DNA from: a virus
Reading direction: 5' to 3' (one strand)
DNA length: 53,708 bases
Virus record (IMG/VR): IMGVR_UViG_3300021519_000013
Coordinates: 1 to 53,708 of that record
Under the pieces are notes generated by a model that saw nothing but the letters and a program-made list of their open reading frames with translations, was not told the origin of the DNA and made no database searches. Shown here piece after piece: positions 1,991-23,387 of this stretch. The first letter of the stretch is position 1. Each line of letters starts with the position of its first letter. A program made the position numbers and the translations under genes.

Positions 1991-3136
1991 ATGAACATGG
2001 ATAACTTTTGCCCAGCACCTTGGATGTCTATGTTCTGTCAAATTGATAGAATTAGCGTATGTTGTGCCAATGGTGATAATCTTAAAATGTCACCCAACGA
2101 ATTTAGATCCAGTGACTATCTAAGTAATCTAAAAGCACAGTTTTTAGCAGGCGAAAAACCTAAAAGCTGTAATGGATGTTGGACTCGAGAACAAGCCAAT
2201 CTTATAAGCATAAGGTCACACTACAAGAATAACTTTCCAAAATATACTCGTGAGTTTTTCAATGAGCACACTGAGTTGCCTGTTGAACATATGGAATTAC
2301 GCACCAGTAACTTATGTAATTTCCAATGTAGAATGTGTCATCCAAAAAATAGTGTTGAAATTGCCAGAGAATTTGAAGATAACACTGAACTTCAGAAATA
2401 CTTTAAACCACAACCAAGCTCCATTATGGAAACTACCTCAGAGGATTGGAGTGAGATATTTGATATCAGTTTGGAAACAAAGCGTTTGTTTTTAACAGGT
2501 GGTGAGCCTCTTCTTATAAAACAGTATTACGATTTGTTAGATCATTTAATATTAAACAACAGATGCGAAACAACAGTATTGGATATCTACACCAACTGTA
2601 GTGTATACAATCCTAAATTTATGGATCGCATTGCTCAATTTAAAAGAGTAAAATTTAACCTTAGTATTGATGCTGTTGGTAAGGTTGCAGAGTACCAAAG
2701 ATATGGCACAGTTTGGAATACTGTCGAGGAGAACGCTTTAAAGTTTTGCAGTTTTCCTAATATATTTCCCGCAATACAAACTACAATAACTGCATACGCA
2801 GTACTGGGAATTTCCTCACTTGCAGATTTTTATTTGCAAATGTTAGAAAAAAATAGTAAAATGCAATTCATGGTACATGTGGCATACAATCCTAAAGGTA
2901 TTAACCATATGAACCTACCTATTGCCTTAAAGGAACAAGCAATAGAACAAATTGATTTGGCAGTGTCAAAATTAACGGCAAAGCCATTTGATACAGTGCG
3001 TGGTGAATTTCAATCAATTAAAAAACAACTACTGAACAATACAGATACAGATGTTGATTTTATTCACTTGACTAGAACATACGATCAATCAAGAAATCAG
3101 AAGTTTGAAGACGTTTTTAATTTCAAGCTTTACTAA
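1991..3136 (+). CDS. Radical SAM protein with N-terminal Cys-rich (SPASM/twitch-like) region
   Basis: A 381-residue radical SAM enzyme. The SAM/4Fe-4S motif CNFQCRMC (C109, C113, C116) and the SAM-binding TGGEP (169-173) are intact. Before the barrel, Cys 7, 16, 24, 25, 60 and 63 form a twitch/SPASM-like set likely to bind an auxiliary cluster. Such proteins occur in marine T4-like phages. The substrate is unknown; peptide or small-molecule modification is the usual role of SPASM relatives. The ATG at 1991 lies 9 bases after the CCA end of tRNA-Met with no Shine-Dalgarno sequence, and a second ATG at 1997 is possible. The message may therefore be released as a near-leaderless RNA by tRNA 3'-end processing. 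Confidence 0.88.
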   Translation: MNMDNFCPAPWMSMFCQIDRISVCCANGDNLKMSPNEFRSSDYLSNLKAQFLAGEKPKSCNGCWTREQANLISIRSHYKNNFPKYTREFFNEHTELPVEHMELRTSNLCNFQCRMCHPKNSVEIAREFEDNTELQKYFKPQPSSIMETTSEDWSEIFDISLETKRLFLTGGEPLLIKQYYDLLDHLILNNRCETTVLDIYTNCSVYNPKFMDRIAQFKRVKFNLSIDAVGKVAEYQRYGTVWNTVEENALKFCSFPNIFPAIQTTITAYAVLGISSLADFYLQMLEKNSKMQFMVHVAYNPKGINHMNLPIALKEQAIEQIDLAVSKLTAKPFDTVRGEFQSIKKQLLNNTDTDVDFIHLTRTYDQSRNQKFEDVFNFKLY

Positions 3137-3614: not shown

Positions 3615-3691
3615 TGCGGGGTAGAGCAGTCCGGTAGCTTGACAGCCTCATAAGCTGTAGGTCGTTGGTTCAAATCCAACCCCCGCTTCCA
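3615..3691 (+). tRNA. initiator-type tRNA-Met (CAT)
   Basis: The D-arm agagcagtccggtagct and the T-arm are very like bacterial initiator tRNA. The six pairs gcgggg/ccccgc leave position 1 (T) opposite position 72 (T) unpaired, the mismatch that marks initiator tRNAs. Anticodon loop cctcataa region gives CAT. CCA is encoded. Confidence 0.85.
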
Positions 3692-3692
3692 A

Positions 3693-4013
3693 TTATATCA
3701 TATGTGCTTTAAGTAAACTCTTGAGTATAGGATCTTCACCATATCGCATTACAGCATACTCAACATCCAGTATTAGATCCTTTAGTACAACATCAAACCA
3801 TTCGCCATTGGTCTTATGCATCTTAAGATGACGATGTATGACAGTTTCCAGAAGTTTTGTCTTGCAAATATCAGTAGCTTTGCTATAATGCAACTGTAAT
3901 GGAAATGGGTAGCCAGTTTGAAGGCTCTTTAGTCTTTTGGCAGGATCTCGACTAATCCCTACCTTGTAAGGTGGATTATCACTGCCTATAACATAGATGT
4001 AACTGACTGACAT
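3693..4013 (-). CDS. GIY-YIG (T5orf172/Mug113-type) nuclease-domain protein
   Basis: A 106-residue protein with the pattern of the T5orf172/GIY-YIG family: YIYVIG at 5-10, then YKVGIS (16-21) and a basic DPAKRLKSLQTG stretch (23-34) carrying the conserved Arg. A Glu further on (NGEWFDV, near 70) fits the family metal site. These small proteins are thought to be nucleic-acid nucleases, some of them homing-type. It converges with tRNA-fMet, one base after its CCA, a typical site for a selfish endonuclease. CATAAATA (4022-4029) lies 8 bases before the ATG and no ribosome binding site is seen. Confidence 0.8.
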   Translation of the reverse strand: MSVSYIYVIGSDNPPYKVGISRDPAKRLKSLQTGYPFPLQLHYSKATDICKTKLLETVIHRHLKMHKTNGEWFDVVLKDLILDVEYAVMRYGEDPILKSLLKAHMI

Positions 4014-4306: not shown

Positions 4307-5479
4307 ATGGCAAAAAAACTTACGATATTAGGCAAAGGAATGGCTGGTAGCTACACTGCCAGCCATTTTGCCAGACACAGTGATCTTGAAATTGATCTAT
4401 ACTTTGATCCCAATACTAGAGTACAATCTATAGCACTCAGTGGCAATATTAATTTGCCCATTGCCATGGATAAAAATGCTCGAATTAATTACTCACATTT
4501 GCCATTATTTGATGGCACATTTAAAATGGGTGTAACAAAGTTGAACTGGGGCAATGGCGAGCCACTTGGAAGTTGGTTTCGTCCAGGTATAACATCCTAT
4601 CATTTTTCAGGGGAAGGGTTGCAGAACCTAATACTTGATCAACTGGGCAACAGGATAAATGTTATTCCGCAACGTGTGGACATTAACGATATTGATTCAG
4701 ACTTTATAATGGATTGCACTGGCAAACCCACTGATCCTGATAAATTGATATACCTTAATGAAAAGGAAGATAGTATTCCTGTTGATAGTGTATTGATTAT
4801 TGATTGTCCATGGGATTTTCCAATTTACAATACTACGCATTCCGTCGCAAGACCATATGGATGGGTATTTGCTATACCATTAGCCAGTAAGATGAGCGTT
4901 GGATATCTATATAACAAAAGCATTAATACACTCGACGAAGTTAAAGAGGATATAAAGGAAGTCTTTAAGCAACTCGCAATTACTCCCGGTGATAAATCTG
5001 TTTCTTTTAGCTTCGATAGCTATTACCGAAAACAGAACTTTACAGGCCGCATTGCTTATAATGGGAATCAGTCTGCTTTCCTTGAACCACTTGAGGCAAC
5101 ATCAATTTGGTTAATGACTTTCAATCAGTTGGAGGCAATGGAAGTGTGGCTCAATAACAAACCCATTGATGAGGCAAATAAGCTTTATCAATCCAAGGTT
5201 GCAGGTATTGAAACCTGTGTAATGTTGCATTACTTTGCTGGTAGTATATTTGACACTGACTTTTGGCGCTTTGCCAAAGAACGATCTGAAAGACATATGC
5301 GTAATGCAATTAAAAATCCAGAGTTTCAACTTGCGCTGCGACAGATTGCCACAACCAATTTGAATAACCCTGGTGATGTTGGCATTAATGAAAAATACGG
5401 ACATTGGGCCATAACAATATGGGGAAACCATTTTAAAAAATGGGGAATCTTTGACAAATTAAAAAAATTATACGTTTGA
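4307..5479 (+). CDS. Compact flavin-dependent halogenase-like protein
   Basis: A 390-residue FAD protein related to tryptophan halogenases. It has an N-terminal FAD loop GKGMAGS (9-15), a Lys in FKMGVTKLNW (K73) where halogenases carry the catalytic Lys, DCTGK (136-140), a WVFAIP segment (186-191) matching the WxWxIP motif with Phe for the second Trp, and FLEPLEAT (258-265) matching the halogenase EPLEST segment with Ala for Ser. It is much shorter than the 500-odd residues of PrnA/RebH. It could be a halogenase with altered chemistry or a flavin monooxygenase. It leads a run of overlapping genes. Phage flavin halogenases are known (VirX1 of a cyanophage). Confidence 0.82.
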   Translation: MAKKLTILGKGMAGSYTASHFARHSDLEIDLYFDPNTRVQSIALSGNINLPIAMDKNARINYSHLPLFDGTFKMGVTKLNWGNGEPLGSWFRPGITSYHFSGEGLQNLILDQLGNRINVIPQRVDINDIDSDFIMDCTGKPTDPDKLIYLNEKEDSIPVDSVLIIDCPWDFPIYNTTHSVARPYGWVFAIPLASKMSVGYLYNKSINTLDEVKEDIKEVFKQLAITPGDKSVSFSFDSYYRKQNFTGRIAYNGNQSAFLEPLEATSIWLMTFNQLEAMEVWLNNKPIDEANKLYQSKVAGIETCVMLHYFAGSIFDTDFWRFAKERSERHMRNAIKNPEFQLALRQIATTNLNNPGDVGINEKYGHWAITIWGNHFKKWGIFDKLKKLYV

Positions 5480-5486
5480 TATCCAC

Positions 5487-5494
5487 AATAAATA
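5487..5494 (+). promoter_or_regulatory. late promoter-like octamer AATAAATA
   Basis: Followed by AACGC and then ATG at 5500. This is nearly the same arrangement as at the kinase-like gene (AACAT then ATG), which supports a leaderless start. Confidence 0.5.
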
Positions 5495-5499
5495 AACGC

Positions 5500-5994
5500 A
5501 TGTACATAAAGTATTTGGAGTATCCGCCGGTTCCTAATGAACTGCTACCTCCCATTGATCAAATTATTAATAGTAAAAAGATGGATATTCCACATTGTGG
5601 CAATGTAGATCCAAATGATGTGTTTAATAGTTTTAGTACAAGAACATTATCAAAAGAACTGGATCATTGGATTACAGACACGTTCAAATGTCAATATTAT
5701 GCCAACTATCAAATATTAATTGGCAATAATCCTATCCATATTGATTTGCAACATTTTCCAGGAGCTAGAATAGTTGCGTTTAACTATCTACTGGATCAGG
5801 GTGGCGATAATGTTATAACAACTGTATATGACAAAGATCATGCAGTATTACAATCGGAGAGAATAGATCTACACCGTTGGCATATGTTAAGAACAAGCAT
5901 GCCACATAATGTCATGGGAATAGAGCCTGGAAAAATTAGAGTTGCATTAAGTGTAACACCCATAATGCATCCCAAAGGCAATAAGAATGCTTGA
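5500..5994 (+). CDS. Fe(II)/2-oxoglutarate-dependent oxygenase-like protein
   Basis: A 164-residue protein with the facial-triad pattern of 2OG-Fe(II) oxygenases: HID (H80, D82), a distal His in MPHNV (H136) and an Arg in KIRVALS (R147) suited to 2-oxoglutarate. The surrounding RWHMLRT/PHNVMG/RVALSVTP pattern is typical of short phage and cyanobacterial members. The probable reaction is hydroxylation of an unknown substrate. The ATG at 5500 is favoured because a late octamer precedes it by 5 bases. A TTG at 5476, overlapping the upstream stop, would add 8 residues. The stop overlaps the next gene. Confidence 0.75.
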   Translation: MYIKYLEYPPVPNELLPPIDQIINSKKMDIPHCGNVDPNDVFNSFSTRTLSKELDHWITDTFKCQYYANYQILIGNNPIHIDLQHFPGARIVAFNYLLDQGGDNVITTVYDKDHAVLQSERIDLHRWHMLRTSMPHNVMGIEPGKIRVALSVTPIMHPKGNKNA

Positions 5995-7216
5995 TGAGGA
6001 AATCAAAGCGGCTCGCAATGGCTGCTATTATTATAATGGCAAGGTATACTTTCTCAGAGAAGATGCATTTGAGGACATGCTTGCCAATAAAGAATATGAC
6101 AGTAAGTTAAAATTTTTATTCAATGATCATATATTTTCCAAGTTGAATTGGTCCATTGAGCCGGATGTTAATTTGGATATATTGTATAAAATTAGAGCAC
6201 AGCAACTTAGAGACAAATACAAGTATCTAATATTAGGGTTCAGTGGCGGAAGTGATAGTACTCAAATTTTAGAAACATTCCTCAAGAATAATATTTTCAT
6301 TGACGAAATTCAAACTGCACACAATGTTAAAATGTCACGTGGCATAGATCAACAAGTGCTAATGTCAGACCCTGATCTAAATTTATTTTTGGAATATGAT
6401 CTTGCAGTGGAACCCATGCTTAAAAAAGTAAAGCAACTTAGTCCCAATACAAAAATTACAGTCATTGATAGTTCTGACTTTTTGCATCAGGAAATTCAAA
6501 AAAAGTCATACAAGTTTTTATCTATTGGCACAGGAAAAGAAAAAGGCATATCTCAGAGACTAACATCAACCATGGGCATTTCCATTGCACAGTATTATCT
6601 TTATAAACAACTAAATGTTTTTGAAAGTAAAGACAAGGATAATGTAGCAATTATAAGAGGCATTGAAAAACCACAGTTGTCGGTTGTTGATGGTAATCTA
6701 GTATTTCATTTTAATGACTTGTCGTTGTTGTCCATATCACAAATGTTTGCGGGCACACTTGATCCTACCTATACCATGGAAGATTTCTTCTGGTCGCCTG
6801 ATGCACCACTTATTCCCATAAAACAAAGTCACCTTATTAAAAAATGTCTTGAATCGGATAAAAATTTCCTAACATTTTTTCTGGAACAAAAATCGGAATT
6901 CAATGAATATTTCAAAAGTAATAAACTGGAATTGTCAAGACCCAAAGCAATAATGCTTGAGCGTTCATATAATTCCATAATCTATCCAGACTGGGATACA
7001 CGAACATTTGTTGCCCCAAAATCAACAACTGACATACCTGAGTTGAAACTATATAGTAAGGTAGTGGGGAAGCATAATACATATGGTGCGCTCAAAGATA
7101 ATTTAAAATACGTGGAATCACATTGGGGGAAACTTACCAATACAAGCCAACTATTAAAGAATCTACAGAGTAGGCCCTACAATTTAGGAGTACTAAATCT
7201 AAAATGTTTAACATAA
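5987..7216 (+). CDS. PP-loop ATP pyrophosphatase family protein
   Basis: A 409-residue protein with an N-type ATP-pyrophosphatase PP-loop, SGGSDS (86-91), after an 80-residue N-terminal region. The layout resembles the synthetase half of asparagine synthetase-like enzymes, which adenylate a carboxylate or carbonyl and then transfer an amine, but no glutaminase domain is present. Related folds also occur in tRNA-modifying enzymes. The start overlaps the 2OG oxygenase gene by 8 bases and the end overlaps the binding-protein gene by 13, so the genes are translationally coupled. A second PP-loop gene follows at 9172. Substrate unknown. Confidence 0.8.
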   Translation: MLDEEIKAARNGCYYYNGKVYFLREDAFEDMLANKEYDSKLKFLFNDHIFSKLNWSIEPDVNLDILYKIRAQQLRDKYKYLILGFSGGSDSTQILETFLKNNIFIDEIQTAHNVKMSRGIDQQVLMSDPDLNLFLEYDLAVEPMLKKVKQLSPNTKITVIDSSDFLHQEIQKKSYKFLSIGTGKEKGISQRLTSTMGISIAQYYLYKQLNVFESKDKDNVAIIRGIEKPQLSVVDGNLVFHFNDLSLLSISQMFAGTLDPTYTMEDFFWSPDAPLIPIKQSHLIKKCLESDKNFLTFFLEQKSEFNEYFKSNKLELSRPKAIMLERSYNSIIYPDWDTRTFVAPKSTTDIPELKLYSKVVGKHNTYGALKDNLKYVESHWGKLTNTSQLLKNLQSRPYNLGVLNLKCLT

Positions 7217-8124
7217 AAACTTTAATACTATCATTGGGATTGTATGCAGCAACACACACTGCTATGGCTGCCGAACAGGTAGTTATATACTCAAGATTTG
7301 TTGCCAATCAAGAATTTGGTATCATGAATCAATTCATTGCCGATGAACTTAATAAGATGCAAACAGATTATGAATTTAGAACCGCAGTGATTGCCGGTTC
7401 ACAAGGCATTGCGGCTGAATTGAGGGCATTAGCAGCCGTAAAAGAAGGTAAAAAAGTTCTTGTCGCTGGGACAATTAGTAACTTTACATTTAATAGATAT
7501 TTTAATCCTGAAACACCCAATCAACCAAACGTATTTGAGCCTGTGATTAACTTGGTGAGTCTTCCCGCTGGAATTCTTGTTAGTCCATCCAGCAATATTA
7601 ATTCAGTGGATGAATTAGTAAGCTATTTGAAAAGTAAGCCTGTAGCGTATAGAGCAACCAGTCTTGGTGCTATAAGTCATACATTTTTAGATTTAGTTTT
7701 TAGAAAGTACAAGGGTATAACAAATGTCAAGGATCTACAATATCCAATTAAAGAGATACCGCGTAACATACTAACAGGTGAAGCAGATTATACACTGTCG
7801 TCAATTGAAGGAAATGACCAATTGCTTAAGCCTATACTGATAACCAGTGGCGTAAAAAATAAAAAATATGCAAATATACCAACGGCAGATTCAGTTGGTA
7901 TGCCGGATCTGTTACCAGTTACGGCTTCTTTATTATATGTGCCAGTTGATCAACCCAAGTTATCAATTGATCTAAAGGATATGCTTCTTAAAATATGCCA
8001 AAACTCTAAATTTAGTGAACTAGCAGATAAATTTGATATGGATAGAGATTGTGTCATTGATGGGCAACAGTTATCTGATACAATGAATAAGCATCAAAAT
8101 TTTATTTTAAAGTACAAAGATTAA
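7204..8124 (+). CDS. Bug/TctC-type periplasmic substrate-binding protein
   Basis: A 306-residue protein with a clear signal peptide (K5, hydrophobic core, cleavage near TAMA-AEQ at 22/23). The mature part has the Bug/TctC plan: a start like VVIYSRFVANQ, a central VSLPAGILVSPSSNINSVDE region and YRATSLGAISH as a ligand-loop analogue. In bacteria these proteins deliver carboxylates and related small molecules to tripartite tricarboxylate transporters or act as sensors. No transporter gene is near. A phage copy could feed a host TTT transporter or scavenge a ligand. It is embedded in the oxygenase/PP-loop operon. Confidence 0.75.
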   Translation: MFNIKTLILSLGLYAATHTAMAAEQVVIYSRFVANQEFGIMNQFIADELNKMQTDYEFRTAVIAGSQGIAAELRALAAVKEGKKVLVAGTISNFTFNRYFNPETPNQPNVFEPVINLVSLPAGILVSPSSNINSVDELVSYLKSKPVAYRATSLGAISHTFLDLVFRKYKGITNVKDLQYPIKEIPRNILTGEADYTLSSIEGNDQLLKPILITSGVKNKKYANIPTADSVGMPDLLPVTASLLYVPVDQPKLSIDLKDMLLKICQNSKFSELADKFDMDRDCVIDGQQLSDTMNKHQNFILKYKD

Positions 8125-8693
8125 TAATTTAAACTCAAGCCAAATAAAATACTATGACGGTTATTGTTGGATCTATTAAATCCCTCGTGCCAAGAATCAT
8201 GCATATTAGCGGCCAGCCAACCTTTCCCCCATCCTGTAGTCATTCTAATGGGGTTATTGTAATGCTGGTCTGTGTAAAATATAGTGCTTTGCTGTGGATC
8301 ATCTCCTGTAATTAGATAACACATACCGGCAGCAACAAGCATACGACTATCAAGATGTATTGCAGTATTATGCCCTGGCTTGTCCAGCACTGGAGTACAG
8401 ATTGTTTTGGTGATGTTTTTCATTTCATTTGGGGACTTGGCCCAATAGCCAGCAAACAATGGCTCTGAATATAGAACATCAACTATTGTATTTTTAAATT
8501 CAACAGTGAAAAAATAATCAACTAATGACTTAAAAGCTGGATCCTTGACAGAATTTAATACGGATCTTAAATTAAAATCAGTCTGTCCATATGCAACTTC
8601 ATTTGTTACCCAATCCTCATTGGTAATATCAAATTTTGGTATGTTAAAATCAACTTCAAATACAAAATCACGCTGCTTATTAAATGTTAACAT
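8121..8693 (-). CDS. Fe(II)/2-oxoglutarate-dependent oxygenase-like protein
   Basis: A 190-residue protein carrying a 2OG-oxygenase triad: HLD (H113, D115), WHEGF (H169) and NRHSIL with Arg R179. PGHNTAIHLDSR and the WHEGFNRSNNNRHS tail look like the short-chain hydroxylases seen in marine phages. The ATG at 8693 is preferred over a TTG at 8735 because AATAAATA on the minus strand lies 4 bases before it. It is divergent from the fatty-acid-hydroxylase gene and convergent with the binding-protein gene, overlapping it by 4 bases. Substrate unknown. Confidence 0.75.
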   Translation of the reverse strand: MLTFNKQRDFVFEVDFNIPKFDITNEDWVTNEVAYGQTDFNLRSVLNSVKDPAFKSLVDYFFTVEFKNTIVDVLYSEPLFAGYWAKSPNEMKNITKTICTPVLDKPGHNTAIHLDSRMLVAAGMCYLITGDDPQQSTIFYTDQHYNNPIRMTTGWGKGWLAANMHDSWHEGFNRSNNNRHSILFGLSLNY

Positions 8694-8697
8694 CCAA

Positions 8698-8705
8698 TAT
8701 TTATT
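8698..8705 (-). promoter_or_regulatory. late promoter-like octamer AATAAATA
   Basis: Followed on the minus strand by TTGG and then ATG (8693). It is one half of a divergent pair with the plus-strand octamer at 8722. Confidence 0.5.
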
Positions 8706-8721
8706 GGGGCAAAATGTTCTA

Positions 8722-8729
8722 AATAAATA
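8722..8729 (+). promoter_or_regulatory. late promoter-like octamer AATAAATA
   Basis: Followed by TTGCAA and then GTG (8736), with a TTG directly at 8730. It forms a divergent promoter pair with 8698-8705, only 16 bases apart. Confidence 0.5.
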
Positions 8730-8735
8730 TTGCAA

Positions 8736-9185
8736 GTGGAATACATTTTTTGCTTTACTGCTTGGACGTTATTGATTTATTGGACACATAGGCTTGCTCA
8801 TGTGATTCCCATAATGAACTCGTGGCATAGAGATCATCACAGTCAAGTGTCAAATGGTACCTATAAAGGACTACACTGGACAAACCTATTTTTGTTTTTT
8901 GATAGTTGGCGTAGTACCGCAGATCAATGGGCAACTGAAGTTGTCCCCACACTACTTTTTGCCGCCATTACAGATGAATGGTGGATTGTTGCTTTTTATT
9001 ATATATGGGCAGCATTTATTCAAGAAGCGATAGAACATAATCACACATTTAACATATACCCATTTTTAACAAGCGGACAATGGCATCTAATTCATCACGA
9101 AAACAATGAAAAAAACTTTGGAGTATTTGTTCCCATATGGGATATATTGTTTGGGACCTATGAGACAGTAAATGACAACACATAA
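8736..9185 (+). CDS. Fatty acid hydroxylase/sterol desaturase superfamily membrane protein
   Basis: About 149 residues with the histidine boxes of the FA_hydroxylase superfamily: HRLAH, HRDHH, a HNH, and HLIHH followed by NFGVFVPIWDILFGTY, the family's hallmark ending. These His residues bind a di-iron centre that hydroxylates or desaturates lipids. Two or three hydrophobic segments (FCFTAWTLLIYW, VVPTLLFAAI, WWIVAFYYIWAAF) indicate a membrane protein. It is shorter than most cellular members. The start is either GTG 8736 or TTG 8730; no ATG lies before the second His box. A lipid or hydrophobic-substrate hydroxylase role is inferred. Confidence 0.8.
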   Translation: MEYIFCFTAWTLLIYWTHRLAHVIPIMNSWHRDHHSQVSNGTYKGLHWTNLFLFFDSWRSTADQWATEVVPTLLFAAITDEWWIVAFYYIWAAFIQEAIEHNHTFNIYPFLTSGQWHLIHHENNEKNFGVFVPIWDILFGTYETVNDNT

Positions 9186-9990
9186 TAATTGGATGACGCA
9201 TAACTTAAGTGAACGTTTCAATAACAAAAATGAACCTTTTGTTGTTGACCTACATCCCTATCAATTTACATCAATGAATTTTAGCGAAGCTTCTGATTAC
9301 ACCGCCAAGCTAATATATCAAAAATATTCCAAAATATTCTTAAGTTTTAGCGGAGGATTGGATAGTGATTATGTGTTTCATGTGTTTAAAAGGAATAACA
9401 TACCGTTTGATCCTATAATTGTTAAAACATCAGGCAATGCACTTGAAATGAAGTATGCGTTGCACACATGCAAAAAATTTGATGTGACTCCCATAATTTT
9501 AACTTTGGATGACCATGAATACTTGTCTTTCCTTGATTTACAAGTAATTGGGGAAATATCTGGCAGTGGTCTTTGTGCAATTCCTGGAATATTTGCATGT
9601 GAATATGCCAAAGCAAATTCCGGTATTTGTGTTATTGGCGAACATATGATTGACAATGATGATGAATCAATATTTCCTGGCATGAACGAATGGGATTTTT
9701 ACAATGAGGTCTTTGTGGGTGAGGAGCACAATGTTCCATTTTTCAATTATACTGTTGAGCTTACAAATGCCATGCTAGAATCCATGAACAATGATACAAT
9801 TGATGAATGGAAACATAAGCTTTACAATCTAACATATAGACCCATTATTGATTACCAATTTGATACAAAGTTTCAAATGATAAAGTATACCATGTTTAAA
9901 AAACAAAAACAAAGACCAGTGAATCACTTTGATCCAGGGAGTAAAGAACAGCTACTATCATTGTTTAGTAGGTTTAAAATTGATAAATAA
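9172..9990 (+). CDS. PP-loop ATPase family protein (asparagine synthetase-like)
   Basis: A 272-residue protein with PP-loop SGGLDS (60-65) in a KIFLSFSGGLDSDYV context, typical of N-type ATP pyrophosphatases. It is a compact relative of the PP-loop protein at 5987. Such domains activate a substrate as adenylate before amide, thio or amine transfer. The start overlaps the membrane hydroxylase by 14 bases; an ATG at 9193 is an alternative. No glutaminase or sulphur-transfer cysteine motif is apparent. Substrate unknown. Confidence 0.78.
   Translation: MTTHNNWMTHNLSERFNNKNEPFVVDLHPYQFTSMNFSEASDYTAKLIYQKYSKIFLSFSGGLDSDYVFHVFKRNNIPFDPIIVKTSGNALEMKYALHTCKKFDVTPIILTLDDHEYLSFLDLQVIGEISGSGLCAIPGIFACEYAKANSGICVIGEHMIDNDDESIFPGMNEWDFYNEVFVGEEHNVPFFNYTVELTNAMLESMNNDTIDEWKHKLYNLTYRPIIDYQFDTKFQMIKYTMFKKQKQRPVNHFDPGSKEQLLSLFSRFKIDK
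9982..9989 (+). promoter_or_regulatory. late promoter-like octamer GATAAATA
   Basis: Lies 22 bases before the ATG at 10012, with an AAAGGA ribosome binding site between them. This is the normal leader arrangement, unlike the neighbouring accessory genes. Confidence 0.5.
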
Positions 9991-10011: not shown

Positions 10012-10509
10012 ATGAGTTTTGCTTACACATTGATTCAAACAGTACAAAAAACATCAGACAAGGGTTGGACTGCTGTTATAATGGGTAATATTACCAATAC
10101 ATATAGTTCAACTGTTGATTCAAGAGATGATCTTTGTTCTAATAGACCCGAAACATTAGCAAAGGCAGTTTCAGATTTTATGCTTGTATTGGATCCACCT
10201 CAGTTTCCTGTAAATTTTGATGGTAAACCTTGGGAATTCAAAAAACTTTGGGATAGACGCTGGGTAGATGACAATACCTTACAATTTTTAAATTATTTTG
10301 ACTCACTACAAGATGCTCAAAATTGGTATCTAAATTGGTTTTCCAGACCATTTGTTCCATACACATCAGGATATTATAATACAAGTTGGCAGATTGTTGA
10401 TGGTGAAGGCAACCAACATCCCTTGCCTGAAATTACTTTTGAATGGAAACGTTCAAAAGAATTTGTTGATCCTGAATTTACCCCAGGATTGAATCCCAAT
10501 TTAATTTAA
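10012..10509 (+). CDS. Hypothetical protein
   Basis: A 165-residue soluble protein that I do not recognise. It is rich in aromatic residues, with repeated Trp (DKGWTAV, KPWEFKKLWDRRWVDD, AQNWYLNWFS, EFEWKRS-like), and lacks Cys-rich or transmembrane segments. Good ribosome binding site AAAGGA and a late-type octamer upstream suggest expression in the virion-production phase. It is the last protein gene before tRNA-Asn. Its expression pattern would suit a virion or assembly role, but no motif supports one. Confidence 0.7.
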   Translation: MSFAYTLIQTVQKTSDKGWTAVIMGNITNTYSSTVDSRDDLCSNRPETLAKAVSDFMLVLDPPQFPVNFDGKPWEFKKLWDRRWVDDNTLQFLNYFDSLQDAQNWYLNWFSRPFVPYTSGYYNTSWQIVDGEGNQHPLPEITFEWKRSKEFVDPEFTPGLNPNLI

Positions 10510-10552: not shown

Positions 10553-10628
10553 TTCCCGATAGCTCAGTTGGTAGAGCATTCGACTGTTAATCGAATGGTC
10601 CTAGGTTCGAGTCCTAGTCGGGGAGCCA
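10553..10628 (+). tRNA. tRNA-Asn (GTT)
   Basis: Acceptor ttcccga/tcgggga, D-arm tagctcagttggtagagc, anticodon stem ttcga/tcgaa with loop ctgttaa giving GTT, discriminator G and encoded CCA. Confidence 0.94.
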
Positions 10629-10706: not shown

Positions 10707-10931
10707 CTTTTATAGGATTCGCCACAACCACTACGTTGGAATCAGATGGGAGATGGTCACCTGTCCCAAAGTATGTTGTGCCTCTTGTACATTGTTGTTA
10801 TGACCGAAACAATGTATCGCAGGATGAGGGCGCTACTATCGAGTAGCAGGCTGGCGGAGTGGTTGAGACCCACAACTTAATTCACTTAGGTTTAGCAACG
10901 TCATCGGTAGCCTCCCCGCAAGGGAGGTTTT
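10707..10931 (+). ncRNA. candidate structured non-coding RNA ending in an intrinsic terminator
   Basis: No open frame with a good start explains this 225-base stretch. It holds several stable hairpins: tacattgtt/aacaatgta (9 bp, about 10789-10820), gctac/gtagc with a 6-base loop (about 10832-10847), gttg/caac with a 7-base loop (about 10863-10877) and a final GC-rich terminator. A tRNA-Ser-like D-arm string, tggcggagtggttgaga, is embedded without a matching acceptor. It follows tRNA-Gly and could be a separate small RNA processed from the tRNA transcript, or a decayed tRNA plus leader. No Rfam family is recognised. Confidence 0.4.
10911..10931 (+). terminator. intrinsic terminator
   Basis: CCTCCC-CGCAA-GGGAGG hairpin (6 GC-rich pairs) followed by TTTTCT. 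It lies 51 bases before the ANL gene and may end the tRNA-Asn/tRNA-Gly/ncRNA transcript or attenuate the ANL operon. Confidence 0.75.
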
Positions 10932-10981
10932 CTATTGATCAAGTATTTGACAGCATAATTACTGCTAAGGAAGGCTTTTCA

Positions 10982-12454
10982 ATGATTAATCAACAGTACA
11001 ACATCGCACAGAGAATTCTCGCCGAACTACAGAAAGACGCAAACAGAGTCGTATTTGAAACCAAGCGTGGTCCAATGACAGCTGGTAGGTTTGCCAACAT
11101 GATCATCAGCTTTGGCATCCATCTACAGCATCGCGGGGTTGTTCAAGGCAGCGTTATTGGATTAGACTGTGTACATGGACCTGTTGGATTTGCACTGACA
11201 TTAGCATCAACATTGAATGGTGCCACATGGGTAAATGTGAACAAAGCAATACTTAATGCCAAGTTACATATGGACATTGTTGTACATAACACTCCAAAAG
11301 AGATTATCGGAGCAAATGTACATAAGATTACACCAGAGTGGTTTAAAGCTCCAGAAGGATTTAAGCCTCCAGTCACATTCCCCGGGTATAAGACAGAAGA
11401 TGATATCTGGATGGTTGCTCAGAGCAGTGGCACAACTGGCAGTATTAAGTTCATGCCAATTACCTACAAGCAGTGGTTTGCTAGAGCAACTGACTTAGAA
11501 CGTCGTAAGGTACGCTTCCCTGGCAAGCACGGCCAGTTCTGTAGCTTGTTTCATCCATTAAAAAGTACAAGCCAAAGCGATGTGCAAGCAGCCGTGCTAA
11601 ATGGCACTAAGGTACTTCTAACATTTCCATCATACGATGATATGCGAACAGTTAAAGATCTCGTTGTAATGGGATCACTTAGCCAGATGGAGTTTACAAT
11701 TAAGGATGCTGCTGAGCCTACTACACCAATCGATACTTCAATCAATTTAAATGGCAGCGCAGTAAGCGCACAGCAGATTGATCGCTTCCTAAGATACTTC
11801 AAGTCAGTATGGGTTGAGTATGGCGCAACTGAGACCACAAAGACGGCAATGAAGCCCATCACAGAAGCAGGCACATACAACGGATCAGTTGGCGCTATCT
11901 TACCAGGTACTGAGTATCGCATTATTGACGATGAGGGTAACGATGCAGAAGAAGGGCAGTTGCTATTAAAAACTGAGGGAATGATCACTGGCTATATCAA
12001 CGAACCAGAACTAACAGCAGCACACTTTATTGATGGATGGTTCTACACGGGAGACATTGCTTCATATATCAATGGCGAATTGTTTCTCAAAGGTCGTCAG
12101 TCTGATAGTTTAAATATTGGTGGTGTCAAGATTGACCCTGCCAAGATTGATGCTGTACTCAAAGAAGTACCAGGTATCAAGGATGCTATAACATTTCAGA
12201 ATCCAGAGTTTCCCACATACAATCAATTACAGGCATTGATTGTCGCTGATGGTGATCACAAGATAATTGGGGATGCCGCTGCCGCTGCCATGATGGAAAA
12301 ATTTGGAATTACACGCTTACCACGTAGAGTGTTCTTTGTCAATAGCATTCCACAGAACGAGAATGGCAAACCTATGCGTAAGGAAGCAGCAGAGTTAGTT
12401 AAAGGGAAGGAGCCTGTTGTAATCATCAATTATAAGCCACAGGGTAAAGAATGA
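10982..12454 (+). CDS. ANL-superfamily adenylate-forming enzyme (first of two)
   Basis: A 490-residue ANL (acyl-CoA synthetase/adenylation domain) enzyme. Core motifs are in order: phosphate loop SSGTTGSIKF (148-157), YGATE (280-284), YTGD (355-358) with the ribose-binding Asp, hinge GRQSDS (371-376) leading into LNIGGVKIDP, and the C-terminal catalytic Lys in NENGKPMR (K463). It should activate a carboxylic acid as acyl-AMP; no carrier-protein or CoA-specific signature is evident. A GTG-initiated extension to 10859 runs through the terminator and was rejected in favour of the ATG preceded by AAGGAAGG. It overlaps its paralogue by 4 bases (ATGATAA). Confidence 0.85.
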   Translation: MINQQYNIAQRILAELQKDANRVVFETKRGPMTAGRFANMIISFGIHLQHRGVVQGSVIGLDCVHGPVGFALTLASTLNGATWVNVNKAILNAKLHMDIVVHNTPKEIIGANVHKITPEWFKAPEGFKPPVTFPGYKTEDDIWMVAQSSGTTGSIKFMPITYKQWFARATDLERRKVRFPGKHGQFCSLFHPLKSTSQSDVQAAVLNGTKVLLTFPSYDDMRTVKDLVVMGSLSQMEFTIKDAAEPTTPIDTSINLNGSAVSAQQIDRFLRYFKSVWVEYGATETTKTAMKPITEAGTYNGSVGAILPGTEYRIIDDEGNDAEEGQLLLKTEGMITGYINEPELTAAHFIDGWFYTGDIASYINGELFLKGRQSDSLNIGGVKIDPAKIDAVLKEVPGIKDAITFQNPEFPTYNQLQALIVADGDHKIIGDAAAAAMMEKFGITRLPRRVFFVNSIPQNENGKPMRKEAAELVKGKEPVVIINYKPQGKE

Positions 12455-13929
12455 TAAATCAACAATTTAACATCGCTTTTGACCTGTTTAAGTTTCTCAA
12501 TGAGAACCCAACACATATCTGTTTTGAAAGCGATCATGGCACAGTTAAAGGCAAGGAATTTGCCAATTTAATAACTGTGTTTGGCTTACAGTTACTAGTG
12601 CGTGAAGTAAAGCCCCGTGAACTAATAGGGTTAGATATTGACGATCCCATCATTGCTCATGTCATGACACAGGCAATAACTGCTATCGGTGCCAGTTGGA
12701 TCAAGATATCACAGCAAGCATTGGAAGCAGAGTTACCAATTAAGCATGTGATATACAATACCAAGCGCATGTATCATGGTGCCAGTGTTCATAAGATTGA
12801 TCAGTCTTGGTTTAAGGAACCTAATGGTCTCACAAATGACATGCGTATACGTGGCTACAAAGATCCTGATGATATTTGGATGATTGCTCAGAGCAGCGGG
12901 TCGACTGGTCTACCTAAATTTATTCCCATCACATATAGACAGTATTGGCATCGTGTGTGGGACATGAACATCAACATGTTTGATCGTCGCATTGAATATT
13001 TCTTCACAACATTCATGCCACTAAAGACCAGCGCACAGTATCACACTATCGCCGCCATCGTGAAGAAGATAACAGTATTGGTTGACATGATGCCTGATAA
13101 GGTAGTAACATATCCTAAATTATTCATGTTAGGCAGCATCATGCAGACACATAAGTTTGTCGGTCTGTTGGATGAACCCGCAGTACCTTATGATGTTGAT
13201 AGCGAGTCAGCTGGTGCTGCTATGAGCAAGAAGGACCTCGAGAAGTTCCTAAAGTATTTCAAGATCGTTCAGAGCAATTATGGATCAACTGAAACAACAA
13301 GAACATTTCAAAGTCGTTACACAACTGTAGATGAATATGTCGGTGACATTGGCCGAGCATTGTTAGATGATATCGTAGCAGAAATTGTTGATGACAATAA
13401 TCAACTAGTTGACGTTGATATTGTAGGTAGCATCCGTTTGAAAACTACACCGCGGCATGTCACTGGCTATTACAATGACCCCGAAGAAACTGCTGAGAAG
13501 TTTAAGACGGGTTACTTCTACCCAGGTGATCTTGCTCGCAGAGATGCTGCTGGTAAGATATTCATTGCTGGACGTAAGAATTCAGCAATGATCAACATCG
13601 GCGGCATTAAGTTGGATCCTGTAACAATCGAAGATGCAGCCCGCAAAGTTCTCGGTCTTAAAGATTGCTTGGTGTTCAAGAACACTGCTATGTCGATGGA
13701 TCGGCAATTGAATATGTTGGTTGTTGCTGATGAAGATGACAGAGAACGTGTGATGTATGCCATAACTGACAGCATTGCTAAAGAGATGGGTATCAGTCAT
13801 GTGCCACAAGCACTTTACTTTATCGATTCCATTCCATTAAATGACAATGGCAAGCCGTGGCGCAGTGCTGCGGAAAAGATTGCTGAAAAGTTAGAACCAA
13901 TTACAATAACACTTGACGAGATTAGATAA
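12451..13929 (+). CDS. ANL-superfamily adenylate-forming enzyme (second of two)
   Basis: A 492-residue paralogue of the preceding gene, alike from the first residues (MINQQFNIA versus MINQQYNIA) onwards. Motifs: SSGSTGLPKF (148-157), YGSTE (277-281), YPGD (357-360), GRKNSAM (374-380) and DNGKPW with K468. The hinge Asp normally in GRxxD is not conserved here, which could alter domain rotation or limit it to one half-reaction. The pair may act as a heteromer or on two acids. It is translationally coupled to the first gene, and tRNA-Leu follows directly. Confidence 0.84.
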   Translation: MINQQFNIAFDLFKFLNENPTHICFESDHGTVKGKEFANLITVFGLQLLVREVKPRELIGLDIDDPIIAHVMTQAITAIGASWIKISQQALEAELPIKHVIYNTKRMYHGASVHKIDQSWFKEPNGLTNDMRIRGYKDPDDIWMIAQSSGSTGLPKFIPITYRQYWHRVWDMNINMFDRRIEYFFTTFMPLKTSAQYHTIAAIVKKITVLVDMMPDKVVTYPKLFMLGSIMQTHKFVGLLDEPAVPYDVDSESAGAAMSKKDLEKFLKYFKIVQSNYGSTETTRTFQSRYTTVDEYVGDIGRALLDDIVAEIVDDNNQLVDVDIVGSIRLKTTPRHVTGYYNDPEETAEKFKTGYFYPGDLARRDAAGKIFIAGRKNSAMINIGGIKLDPVTIEDAARKVLGLKDCLVFKNTAMSMDRQLNMLVVADEDDRERVMYAITDSIAKEMGISHVPQALYFIDSIPLNDNGKPWRSAAEKIAEKLEPITITLDEIR

Positions 13930-14293: not shown

Positions 14294-14309
14294 ATATTAG
14301 GAGAGTGTA

Positions 14310-14498: not shown

Positions 14499-14656
14499 CA
14501 GAAATTGATTTAACAAAGATACAATTAACTTGGTGCCTGGACATCCTTTCCCGAGTCAAGAATATACTTGATTCAAAAGGCTGGACAGACGATCAAAAAC
14601 TCGTTAGTATCGATTGGTTAGTAAAGCAAGCACTCAAAGTAGAAAGAGAAGAATGA
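14495..14656 (+). CDS. Very small hypothetical protein (GTG start)
   Basis: A 53-residue protein starting at GTG 14495, inside the upstream stop, and ending in ATGA shared with the purT start. The tight overlaps at both ends and the charged, helix-compatible composition (start MTEIDLTKIQLTW, end KQALKVEREE) support a real gene. No recognised domain. Confidence 0.6.
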   Translation: MTEIDLTKIQLTWCLDILSRVKNILDSKGWTDDQKLVSIDWLVKQALKVEREE

Positions 14657-15798
14657 AACGCATCTTATTGTTGGGCTCAGGTGAACTGGGCAAGGAATTT
14701 GTTATTAGTGCAAAACGTCTAGGTTGCTATGTTGTTGCTGTTGATAGTTATGACAACGCTCCAGCTATGCAGGTTGCTGACAGATCAGCAGTTTGTGATA
14801 TGCTAAACCCAGATGCTCTTAGAAACGTCATTGACTTCTATCATCCAGATATCATCGTTCCTGAAATTGAAGCTATCCGTACTGAAGTTCTTAAGGAGTT
14901 TGAGGACAATGGCATCCAAGTTGTACCCAGTGCTAAAGCTGTCAATGCTACAATGAATCGCGATACAATCCGTAACATTGCTGTTGGACTTGGTATCCGT
15001 ACTGCTAAATTTGCTTATGCTGAAACAGCTGAAGAGCTAATTGAAGCAGCTAAGACTATCGGCTATCCAGTCGTAGTTAAGCCTGTCATGAGTTCTAGTG
15101 GCAAGGGACAGAGTGTAGTACAGGATCCCAATGACATCACAAGGGCCTGGATCTATGCCGTCGACAATAGCCGTGGTGATCGCAAGAAGGTTATTGTTGA
15201 GGAGTTTATCAACTTCCATACTGAGATTACTGTTCTCACAGTAAAGCAGAAGAATGGTGACGATACTATTTTCTGTAATCCAATTGGCCATGTACAGGAA
15301 CGTGGTGACTATCAGTACAGCTGGCAAACAGGTATGAGTCTTGACCATGTTCTAACATACCCTCAAATTGATGAAGCAGAACGTATCTCAAAGCTTATTA
15401 CCGATGAGCTGGGTGGTGCTGGATTGTTTGGTGTCGAGTTCTTTGTAACGCATAATGAGGTTATTTTCAGTGAACTAAGCCCTCGTCCACATGATACAGG
15501 CATGGTTACACTTATTAGTCAAAATGTTACAGAGTTTGATCTACATGCAAGAGCTATATTGGGTCTACCAATCCCTGCTATTGAGTATCGTAACGGGGCA
15601 AGTGCTGTGGTTCTTGGAGACGACTGGGGGCGTGTACGAACCTATAAGGGCATCGAGCAGGCATTGCTAATAGCACAGGATGTACGCATCTTTGGTAAGG
15701 AACACAGTAGACCCTATCGCAGAATGGGTGTAGTATTGGGTAAGAATTTGATGGAAACCAGGGATGCTGCTCATCTCATCAAAGTAATTACCGGTTGA
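14653..15798 (+). CDS. purT: Formate-dependent phosphoribosylglycinamide formyltransferase (PurT), ATP-grasp
   Basis: A 381-residue protein that matches bacterial PurT (392 residues in E. coli) along its length. It begins RILLLGSGELGKEF, continues YDNAPAMQVADRS and IVPEIEAIRT, then VVKPVMSSSGKGQSVV, the ATP-grasp central domain, and ELSPRPHDTGMVTLIS, which carries Mg-ATP ligands. PurT makes formyl-GAR from GAR, formate and ATP in purine synthesis, bypassing folate. A phage copy would raise the purine supply for replication. The start at 14653 couples to the 53-residue gene by ATGA. Its stop lies inside the -35 of the next promoter. Confidence 0.93.
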   Translation: MKRILLLGSGELGKEFVISAKRLGCYVVAVDSYDNAPAMQVADRSAVCDMLNPDALRNVIDFYHPDIIVPEIEAIRTEVLKEFEDNGIQVVPSAKAVNATMNRDTIRNIAVGLGIRTAKFAYAETAEELIEAAKTIGYPVVVKPVMSSSGKGQSVVQDPNDITRAWIYAVDNSRGDRKKVIVEEFINFHTEITVLTVKQKNGDDTIFCNPIGHVQERGDYQYSWQTGMSLDHVLTYPQIDEAERISKLITDELGGAGLFGVEFFVTHNEVIFSELSPRPHDTGMVTLISQNVTEFDLHARAILGLPIPAIEYRNGASAVVLGDDWGRVRTYKGIEQALLIAQDVRIFGKEHSRPYRRMGVVLGKNLMETRDAAHLIKVITG

Positions 15799-20903: not shown

Positions 20904-23387
20904 ATGCGCCTTAACGATATTTTTGAAGAAAAACTTGATGAAGTAAACATGAGCCCAGGCGCATTAGCAGACTTTGCCAAGACTGAGTTTGCGCAGGCAA
21001 TGACTGCTGGATTTGAAGCAGAGCTTGTTATTCCCAATGCTCAAAGTGATGATGAAGGCGAAATGGAACCGGACTATGATGAAGATCGTCGTTGCCGTAG
21101 CACTGATGACATACGTAGATTCTTCGAAGGTGATTATAACAGCGAAAGGCAAATTGAACGAGCCATTGAACAGATTGACGAAGAATTTTTTGAATATGCC
21201 GACGAGCAGATTAGAAGTGATTTTGATGAAGACGAACGAGACGACATGATCCGTGAAATTCTCAAGGACATGGATAAAAGTCCTGAGGAAATTGAAGAGA
21301 TTATGGATGAACGTAGTAGTAAAGAATACGATCAAGCTGAAAGTTCAGCATGGGAATCGTATAGAGAAAACGCCGACTACGATCAATATGTAAGACAGTT
21401 CTTTGACCGTAACTATCGTTATATGAGTGATGTTGCTAATTCCGTCAGTTTAGATTGGCCTTACTGGACCAACGGTGGTAATGGAGAAGGCGAAAGCAGC
21501 GAGGATATTGCTAAAGATATTGCTGATACCATTGGCATGCCAGTCAAAGCCAGCAGTGGATATCATGGTGCAAAGCGTGGCACTGGCTTCTTTATCCTTG
21601 AACCAGATAGTAGTATTGATTCTGATGATGGCGAAGCAGGACTTGAACTCGTAAGTCCCCCAATGCCACTAGCACAATGCTTGGAATACTTGGATAAGGT
21701 ATTTGATTGGGCACAAATTAGAGGCTGTACCACTAATAGTTCAACTGGCTTTCATATGGGGATCAGTATTCCAGATCAGACCAGAGAGAATGTAGATCAT
21801 TTGAAATTTACATTGTTTCTTGGTGATGACTATGTTCTTCAGCAGTTTGGTAGAGAATCAAACACATATGCTAAAAGCATGATGAAGGAGATGTCTCAGA
21901 AATTAAAAAATCTATCTGCTGGATCTGGCAGAATGGATGCTGAAGGTATGCTACGAGCTTTTAAAGATGGCTTAAATTCATCTGCTGCTAAATTTGTAAA
22001 AACATCATTGACTACAACTCATGATCGTTATGTCACTGTTAATATCAAAGACAAGTATATTGAAGTTCGTAGTGCTGGTGGTGATTACTTAGGTGACTTG
22101 CCAAAGATTAAAAACACATTGCTACGTTATGTTCGTGCTATGGGATTAGCTGCTGATCCAGAAGCAGAGAAGCAAGAATACGCTAAGAAGTTGTATAAGT
22201 TTCTAAGTCCAATGGTTCGTGGCGATGAAGACATCATTAAGTATTTTACACAGTTTAGTGCTGGTACATTACCTTCTACTGCTCTTAAGAGTTTCATTAG
22301 ACAAGCACAGATGAAACGTGGCGGTAGAAAAGCTGCCGGTAGCGGAATTGAGTTGGGCGAAGGACCAAATCTATATCTATTCAAATATTACAGTGTCGTT
22401 GATCCAGCAGATGATCCTGAAAAATTTACCATTAATGTTCGTGGAGCAAGCCGTCGTGATGCCATTGCTAACTTCAGAAAGAAGTTTGAAGAAGGTGATT
22501 ACAATATCTTAGAGATTAAAGATATTGATATAACGGATAACAGTGCTTCACAGGCACAGGCACGAGCCAGCGCAGAAGCAACCGGTCTCTACAGAATAAT
22601 TGACAACAACGGTGCTTATCTGGCAACTATAACTGCTGATAATCCAATGGACGCCTATACTAAAGCTGTTCAACGAGTAACCACAGCAGGATTAGCCGAC
22701 GGCTCATGGAAATTAATAGCACCAGGTGGTCGTCAAATTTATCCAGATCCCGCATTTAGTCCAACAGCATCAAATACAACAACATATCGTATGTTGGATC
22801 GTGGGCATGGATATCTAGCAAGTGTAAATGCTGAGAATGTCATGGACGCTTATACACGAGCTTCCCAAATAGCAAGCAATGCCCAATTGGAGCAAGGATC
22901 TTGGAGATTAATAGATCCAAGTGGTCGTCAAGTATATCCTGAACCATCGTCCAGAATTGTATCAGTTGGACCTGGACGATCAGCATCAAATGAAAACAGG
23001 TATATTGTTACCTACACTAATGCCTATGGAGGTAGCACTATGGCCCCCAGAGTTATGGCTGCTACACCTCAACAAGCAGCTGAACAGATATTAGCACAAC
23101 ATCCTGGATCACAAGTTACCAGTGTTCAAGATTTTGCTTCTGGCGGTCTTGGTCCAAATTTACTTCGCAGCATTCAAACAAACGACGATGACATTCCAGA
23201 ACTTCCCGGCGAGTTTGTGGATGATCCAATGACACCTGGAACTTATATCATCAAATATACTGATATAAGTGGTGCGCGACATCAGACTGCTATAGATGCT
23301 AACAGTGCAGTTGAAGCTAAAGAATGGTTCCGATCTAATCATCCAGTTACATATCATATAACTGATGTTTATAGACATACTGCTTAA
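20904..23387 (+). CDS. Amidoligase-like protein with C-terminal repeat domains
   Basis: An 827-residue protein. After an acidic N-terminal region starting MRLNDIFEEK, the segment AGFEAELVIP (about 35-44) and the block GLELVSPP ... TNSSTGFHMGIS (about 245-290), then VNIKDKYIEVRSAGGDYL, resemble the glutamine-synthetase-fold putative amidoligases, which form amide bonds with ATP. The Asp/Glu-rich stretch between them is unusually long. From about 495 the C-terminus holds five related small units. Two are close copies: YRIIDNNGAYLATI ... GGRQIYPDP and YRMLDRGHGYLASV ... SGRQVYPEP. It may be a virion or peptidoglycan/protein-modifying protein; the fold assignment is moderate. Confidence 0.65.
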   Translation: MRLNDIFEEKLDEVNMSPGALADFAKTEFAQAMTAGFEAELVIPNAQSDDEGEMEPDYDEDRRCRSTDDIRRFFEGDYNSERQIERAIEQIDEEFFEYADEQIRSDFDEDERDDMIREILKDMDKSPEEIEEIMDERSSKEYDQAESSAWESYRENADYDQYVRQFFDRNYRYMSDVANSVSLDWPYWTNGGNGEGESSEDIAKDIADTIGMPVKASSGYHGAKRGTGFFILEPDSSIDSDDGEAGLELVSPPMPLAQCLEYLDKVFDWAQIRGCTTNSSTGFHMGISIPDQTRENVDHLKFTLFLGDDYVLQQFGRESNTYAKSMMKEMSQKLKNLSAGSGRMDAEGMLRAFKDGLNSSAAKFVKTSLTTTHDRYVTVNIKDKYIEVRSAGGDYLGDLPKIKNTLLRYVRAMGLAADPEAEKQEYAKKLYKFLSPMVRGDEDIIKYFTQFSAGTLPSTALKSFIRQAQMKRGGRKAAGSGIELGEGPNLYLFKYYSVVDPADDPEKFTINVRGASRRDAIANFRKKFEEGDYNILEIKDIDITDNSASQAQARASAEATGLYRIIDNNGAYLATITADNPMDAYTKAVQRVTTAGLADGSWKLIAPGGRQIYPDPAFSPTASNTTTYRMLDRGHGYLASVNAENVMDAYTRASQIASNAQLEQGSWRLIDPSGRQVYPEPSSRIVSVGPGRSASNENRYIVTYTNAYGGSTMAPRVMAATPQQAAEQILAQHPGSQVTSVQDFASGGLGPNLLRSIQTNDDDIPELPGEFVDDPMTPGTYIIKYTDISGARHQTAIDANSAVEAKEWFRSNHPVTYHITDVYRHTA

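Follow-up and report, generated by a model that had tools for sequence, protein, structure and literature searches.

A viral PP-loop protein family paired with TctC-like organic-acid-binding proteins in a gene cassette of a virus with T4-like genes

What a virus would do with a dense set of oxidative and ATP-dependent enzymes is the question raised by positions 4,307 to 9,990 of IMG/VR virus record IMGVR_UViG_3300021519_000013, a 53.7-kb record with T4-like genes (T4 RNA ligase 1 and the tail sheath stabiliser gp15) whose whole length of 53,708 nucleotides is called the window here. An earlier note had described there a cluster of seven adjacent or overlapping genes, encoding a halogenase-like flavoprotein (HAL1), two Fe(II)/2-oxoglutarate (2OG) oxygenases (2OGw1 and 2OGw2), two PP-loop ATPases (PPA and PPD), a periplasmic binding protein (TctC) and a membrane di-iron hydroxylase (FAH), and had seen no T4-like pathway that would explain them. 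The seven open reading frames (ORFs) lie where the note placed them, motifs, Pfam and structure matches bear out the identities of their products, and it holds that no T4-like pathway is known for the set. The single cluster, however, did not survive comparison with relatives: the cassette is composed of two conserved submodules, PPA-TctC and FAH-PPD-f34, together with accessory genes, and is not one fixed unit, the halogenase lying outside the conserved core. Both the eighth gene, of the f34 type, and a link to transport had been overlooked. As a whole, the cassette has the appearance of a viral metabolic pathway not described before.

The note had suggested a check for co-occurrence in related phages, and most of the families do occur together, and in order, above gene-order shuffles. 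Genes were called on about 160 loci, proteins were clustered by simple rules and overlapping loci were removed, leaving 123 for comparison with 1000 within-locus gene-order shuffles; these loci share ancestry, were mostly retrieved by PPA or PPD and come from fragmentary contigs (L-numbers below are our labels for relatives' loci and contigs). PPA was followed by TctC in 28 loci (shuffle mean 4.3, maximum 10), by a second TctC group in 13 (mean 2.2, maximum 8) and by FAH in 26 (mean 3.7, maximum 12), while the tightest pair, FAH followed by PPD, was found in 35 (mean 2.5, maximum 8). The commonest order is f4 - short PPA - FAH - PPD - PPA - TctC, with 2OG5, 2OG7 and TctC8 on the opposite strand and tail-fibre and neck genes on the flanks. 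Within one clade that carries the genes in this tail/neck region, 2OG7 preceded 2OG5 in 25 loci (shuffle mean 1.5, maximum 6) and TctC8 preceded 2OG7 in 18 (mean 1.3, maximum 7). In 28 loci the short PPA is immediately preceded by a member of the f4 family (about 143 amino acids; L005:10917-11354 (-) and equivalents), with tail-fibre genes beyond f4.

The paired proteins also diverge together. Protein distances of adjacent PPA and TctC were correlated, at 0.57 in one TctC group and 0.48 in the other, values reached in none of 2000 permutations, and those of FAH and PPD at 0.64, whereas PPA and FAH, despite equal proximity on the DNA, gave a correlation of 0.21 (117 of 2000 permutations) and no clear co-divergence. 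Two PPA-TctC pairs are present in each of five loci, and among 11 pairs taken for a test the same groups appeared in the PPA and TctC trees: L010, L011 and L019 copy 1; L017a and L019 copy 2; and the window, L005 and L017b. The starred or near-starred branches are those small groups, the deeper forks of the TctC tree being weak. Because these groups match in both trees, each PPA seems to keep its own TctC, and co-evolution of the two proteins is well supported.

PPA itself belongs to a virus-specific family that is nearly absent from cellular genomes, and it matched no Pfam, PHROG or NCBIfam model. Used as the sole query against IMG/VR it retrieved 11 viral loci, and a profile made from these found PPA relatives in at least 504 IMG/VR stretches, in contrast to a single match among 84,980 prokaryote genomes, a 3.2-kb contig of a methanotroph bin in which copies of PPA surround a DctP gene; the viral and prokaryote scans did not share both of their peptide patterns, one of the two being different, so the counts are not strictly comparable, although the contrast is still large. 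A tblastn search of 50,697 phage records with three representatives of PPA and with PPD, TctC, FAH, 2OGw1 and 2OGw2 gave no match. The SGGxDS-type loop is present in 153 of 156 PPA and 104 of 105 PPD sequences. Structure models were built from shallow phage alignments (13 sequences for PPA and 8 for PPD), and the AlphaFold model of PPA (mean predicted local distance difference test score, pLDDT, 82) found NadE and the carbapenam, beta-lactam and asparagine synthetases as its best, albeit weak, matches (E >= 1.8e-3, low TM-scores).

The partner of PPA ties the family to transport. A signal peptide was predicted, by a simple home-made rule and not by SignalP, in 143 of the 155 TctC-type proteins, the rate among other proteins of at least 200 amino acids being 5.8%. 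Of 16 long PPA contigs, 15 contain a TctC match, which scores above the curated cut-off in 12; relatives occupying the same place as the window protein reach 51.8 (L005), 113.5 (L012) and 143.3 bits (L182) for PF03401, all above the cut-off. A TctC profile scan of IMG/VR returned already known contigs only, and one TctC query matched 3 of the 50,697 phage records, one of these being a 691-kb Salmonella assembly. On the 99.5-kb contig L063, a transporter operon runs from an exported TctC-group gene through TctB (PF07331, 3e-5, below the cut-off) and TctA (PF01970, 7e-139) and ends, 4 bases further on, with PPA. T4 portal and terminase families, taken as phage markers, matched nowhere or once, so the viral nature of L063 is judged from its IMG/VR listing and from gene content in common with other contigs. 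In L116, PPA is followed by TctA (6e-49) and then by a gene with a signal-peptide-like start, and in L045, L046 and L075 the place of TctC after PPA is taken by DctP, a member of a different carboxylate-binding family that belongs to the unrelated tripartite ATP-independent periplasmic (TRAP) transporters. Coupling of PPA-TctC to transport is well supported. Among the acids bound by Bug proteins are aspartate, glutamate, nicotinate and citrate, and it has been proposed that many orphan TctC proteins are served by a few TctAB permeases (PMC5812351); judged from genomic context, the phage TctC may likewise bind such an acid and use a permease.

Our preferred reading, held tentatively and somewhat short of probable, is that of an uptake-and-activation cassette around a cognate TctC and PPA, with oxygenases tailoring the product. 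The Bug/TctC-type protein would be exported to the periplasm, capture a small organic acid and hand it to a permease (TctAB) of the tripartite tricarboxylate transporter (TTT) type, which would normally belong to the host and now and then to the phage itself. In PP-loop enzymes a carbonyl oxygen is activated with ATP so that ammonia, an amine or sulfur can attack, and by analogy with the asparagine, NAD and beta-lactam synthetases a cytoplasmic PPA might activate a carbonyl or carboxylate of the imported compound with ATP, by adenylation, and join it to an amine or other nucleophile, giving an amide-like or related product. FAH-PPD-f34, as a separable unit, could contribute another ATP-dependent step as well as a di-iron hydroxylation at the membrane, and the 2OG oxygenases would tailor the product. 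In this scheme we infer the direction of import, the substrate shared by the two proteins, the PP-loop chemistry, the order of the steps and the product.

Several observations weigh against uptake and activation as a general explanation. The window TctC scores 24.1 bits (3e-5) for PF03401, below the 27-bit cut-off, and the usual N-terminal glycine motif is missing from it. The short type of PPA pairs with FAH and not with TctC, and some PPA have neither TctC nor FAH as a neighbour. Linked genes co-diverge partly through shared descent, and the loci are not independent. The DctP proteins adjoining PPA in L045, L046, L075, L165 and L166 are without a signal peptide, so that the DctP subset may not be periplasmic, and a cytoplasmic role for DctP beside PPA is possible.

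That most phage TctC occur without TctAB fits a different role, in which the exported proteins would serve as periplasmic decoys, sensors or exclusion factors and the PP-loop enzyme would make their signal or ligand. Many orphan Bug proteins may signal (PMC5812351), and the possession of an own TctC by each PPA agrees with such a role; the presence of TctCBA and TctA alongside PPA in two viruses, and the lack of a constant receptor gene, make it quite unlikely. A further alternative is the salvage of NAD or pyridines, in which a Bug27-like protein would import nicotinate or quinolinate, and NAD or a related cofactor would be completed by a PP-loop enzyme resembling NadE, as a counter to NAD-depleting defences. 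Among the structural matches NadE ranks first for PPA and is close for PPD, and Bug27 and Bug69 bind quinolinate (PMC11452294), but the NadE match is weak and other PP-loop enzymes match no less well, the presence of several divergent PPA in one genome argues for several substrates, and no PADLOC or NCBIfam model was matched; we consider NAD salvage very improbable.

The second submodule has FAH at its head, in which the di-iron histidine set (8-9 His; H20, H24, H33, H36, H37, H103, H119, H122 and H123) is invariant in about 60 relatives. An IMG/VR scan with FAH as sole query found no relative, and a PPD query gave 98 matches. The sequence of PPD has no Pfam or NCBIfam match, a weak PHROG match (0.0025) and a profile match to NadE (7e-5), while its AlphaFold model (mean pLDDT 82, predicted TM-score 0.85) matched LarE, NadE and TtuA at 4e-6 and 140 Protein Data Bank (PDB) chains at E <= 0.001 in Foldseek. 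The small f34 protein stands in the same place behind FAH-PPD in L172 and L173. Enzymes of the FAH superfamily usually act on lipids, and modification of a lipid or envelope component, which the earlier note had offered among its suggestions, is possible, mainly for the FAH part. In its full form, with FAH and the PP-loop enzymes altering a host lipid or head group, for example to block superinfection, and TctC supplying a building block, such a function agrees with the tightness of the FAH-PPD pair, with the co-divergence of its members and with desaturases near PPD in other phages. PPA-TctC, however, is found without FAH, the two units can be separated by 57 kb and no constant acyltransferase accompanies them, which leaves the envelope explanation rather unlikely.

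In the window, the cassette lies inside a tRNA cluster (22 tRNA genes were found in the window), and the interval between tRNA-Met and tRNA-Asn holds the seven noted genes, a GIY-YIG-type gene and the eighth cassette gene (Table 1). ORF overlaps of 13 bases between PPA and TctC, 4 between TctC and 2OGw2 and 14 between FAH and PPD are operon-like.

Table 1. Features of the cassette interval in the window
Feature	Coordinates	Strand	Remarks
tRNA-Met	3615..3691	+	Left border of the cassette interval; same tRNA is the border in L007 and L172
GIY-YIG-type gene (T5orf172/MUG113)	3693-4013	-	At the cassette border
HAL1, compact flavin-dependent-halogenase-like protein, 390 amino acids	4307..5479	+	Pfam Trp_halogenase 3.2e-22; PHROG 3e-54
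2OGw1, 2OG-Fe(II)-oxygenase-like protein	5500..5994	+	ORF opens at TTG 5476; relatives' alignments begin at ATG 5500, the likely start
PPA, PP-loop protein, 409 amino acids	5987..7216	+	SGGxDS motif; directly precedes TctC
TctC-like (Bug-type) organic-acid-binding protein, PPA partner	7204..8124	+	Signal-peptide-like N terminus
2OGw2, second 2OG-Fe(II)-oxygenase-like protein	8121..8735	-	HxD...H...R motif
FAH, membrane di-iron hydroxylase, fatty-acid-hydroxylase superfamily	8730..9185	+	PF04116 4.4e-15, 56.7 bits (cut-off 31)
PPD, second PP-loop protein, 272 amino acids	9172..9990	+	SGGxDS
f34-type small companion protein, 165 amino acids, eighth cassette gene	10012..10509	+	hhalign to the f34 family, 98%
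tRNA-Asn	10553..10628	+	Bounds the cassette interval on the right; L007 and L172 have the same tRNA

The same parts are located in the tRNA cluster, instead of the tail/neck region, in the window, L007 and L172. In L007, whose tRNA-flanking DNA is 80-100% identical to that of the window, the tRNA-Met to tRNA-Asn interval measures 1.4 kb against 6.9 kb and contains only 2OGw1 and one other gene; its PPA-TctC lies upstream of the tRNA cluster with the pairing retained. L172, retrieved by 2OGw1 alone, has an intact FAH-PPD-f34 and, about 57 kb away, PPA-TctC. From these two layouts, and because 15 of 18 contigs retrieved by PPD alone contain PPA too, we conclude that the submodules are separable and travel together. 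The GIY-YIG-type gene seems mobile within the tRNA cluster, since its close copy in L007 is flanked by different tRNA genes.

Such variability would also be expected of a loose collection of auxiliary genes without a shared pathway, gathered in a hot spot between tRNAs near a homing-endonuclease-like gene. The differing interval lengths, the absence of a link between HAL1 and the module and the low GC content of the cassette (35.0%, against 38.3-43.3% for all 6.2-kb stretches beyond position 14300), which suggests recent acquisition, all agree with it. Yet the same families recur side by side far more often than gene-order shuffles give, at positions and in phage backgrounds that are unrelated, and the cognate pairs co-diverge, so that a chance assemblage is unlikely and already disfavoured for the core. 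The surroundings, with TtuA among the structural matches of PPD, would further allow the PP-loop, 2OG and radical S-adenosylmethionine (SAM) enzymes to act on phage tRNAs or other nucleic acids. This function has no place for a membrane hydroxylase or for a binding protein that is exported, for which reason we rate it low, and in most loci the module is found not near tRNAs but between the genes for tail fibre and neck; tRNA or nucleic-acid modification is accordingly the most improbable of the explanations considered.

Both 2OG-like genes recur alongside PPA-TctC in relatives. Residues H80, D82, H136 and R147 of the HxD...H...R motif of 2OGw1 are invariant in four relatives, and homologues lie immediately upstream of PPA in L008 and two genes upstream in L089. 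The one relative of 2OGw2, L055:4398-4991(-), shares the HxD...H...R motif and likewise adjoins PPA-TctC. Neither protein matched Pfam, PHROG, NCBIfam or PDB entries; as Pfam gives no match, the oxygenase assignment of 2OGw1 is motif-based.

HAL1, in contrast to the conserved core, is an accessory, a local addition in this phage. Considered as a core member, it was rejected, being absent from every other module locus, and for that reason halogenation is not a property of the conserved module. The protein keeps GxGxxG (as GKGMAG), EPLE(S/A)T (as EPLEAT) and the catalytic Lys73, invariant across four aligned proteins, and has WVFAIP in place of the WxWxIP motif (WVFGVP in the relative from S-RIM4). 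Its closest relative, at 38%, is a lone gene of cyanophage S-RIM4, and an IMG/VR scan with the halogenase as sole query found none. A second halogenase, HAL2 (27824-29428, -), which the note had listed as a possible helper, proved to be a relative of VirX1: it is a full-length homologue (PDB 6qgm, 6e-145) of that protein in a different T4-like phage. VirX1 is a characterised viral iodinating halogenase of a cyanophage (Gkotsi et al. 2019, as cited in PMC10452541). HAL1 is shorter than VirX1 and only distantly related to it (2.8e-7).

Among the known systems closest to the cassette are orphan Bug/TctC genes beside arylmalonate decarboxylases (PMC5812351), where a TTT carboxylate-binding gene adjoins an enzyme thought to use the imported acid; these pairs are bacterial and involve another enzyme class, whereas the present ones are viral, contain a PP-loop protein and co-diverge. 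Cyanophage PstS, carried with other auxiliary metabolic genes, is similarly a phage periplasmic binding protein that would use a host permease, but its gene is a phosphate gene of host-like type to which no partner enzyme is dedicated (PMC3037559), in contrast to the virus-specific PPA. N-type PP-loop ligases (asparagine, NAD, beta-lactam and carbapenam synthetases) share the SGGxDS loop and perhaps a distant fold similarity with PPA and PPD, neither of which belongs to a Pfam, PHROG or NCBIfam family or has a detected glutaminase domain. Both tctA and 2OG oxygenase genes have been noted on viral contigs of SUP05, as separate genes, with tctA as a domain match only and no PP-loop pairing described (PMC4164917). 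No description of the PPA-TctC pairing was found in the open-access literature.

A broader proposal, plausible though with the balance against it, is that T4-like and other large uncultured phages carry a modular form of biosynthesis, in which virus-specific PP-loop ligases, each with its own imported acid (through a cognate TctC, DctP or TctCBA), would be combined with interchangeable oxygenases to make new small molecules in the course of infection. Those oxygenases would include di-iron, 2OG, Rieske, desaturase, nitronate-monooxygenase-like and B12/radical SAM enzymes, and the products would belong to no known pathway. Phage auxiliary genes are usually interpreted singly, as copies of host genes; here gene order and tree shape tie an unnamed family of enzymes, specific to viruses and known from hundreds of uncultured ones, to organic-acid-binding proteins, and once to a full transporter. 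A list of odd genes thereby becomes a testable unit, beginning with the ligand of the binding protein and continuing with the action of its enzyme. Such a unit would in addition supply a partner enzyme for some orphan Bug-type proteins and demonstrate that phages reprogram import in infected cells.

Further PP-loop genes were seen among the relatives. A third family (fam24), fused to a GNAT acetyltransferase-like domain, adjoins PPA in L158:13444-14886 and L154:11941-13380, and in the large uncultured phages L103, L116 and L075 several paralogs of PPA and PPD form arrays in which Rieske, desaturase, ATP-grasp and carbamoyltransferase-like genes also occur. In these and other loci the names Rieske, desaturase, nitronate monooxygenase, ATP-grasp and DctP come from Pfam matches of single representatives, and QueD, GNAT and others were assigned by eye.

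The remaining helpers proposed for the cassette fared unevenly. The radical SAM protein (1991-3136, +) belongs to a family whose members lie within a few genes of PPA in many loci, L011, L063 and L108 among them, so that recurrence around the modules holds; its nearness to PPA did not exceed gene-order shuffles, and it was rejected as a core member. Tandem AMP-binding (ANL) ligases lie just past the cassette (10859-12454 and 12451-13929, +) and could act on the same carboxylates; they have one distant parallel, an ANL-like gene after PPA in L063 (9101-10042). The U32 label given to 29428-30660 received no support from Pfam or PDB. None of the eight cassette proteins matched any anti-phage or counter-defence model in PADLOC. 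Elsewhere in the window, a gene within the tRNA cluster (899-1591, -) shows similarity (1e-15) to PHROG 15752, the T7 0.7-like protein kinase, an inhibitor of host transcription, 14614-15798 (+) encodes a PurK/PurT-like ATP-grasp protein, and a Subtilase-family protease (50549-52177, -) lies amid tail-fibre genes. An 827-amino-acid protein with an amidoligase domain is encoded at 20904-23387 (+), and small amidoligases adjoin the module in other loci too, for example at 7129-7980 of L009.

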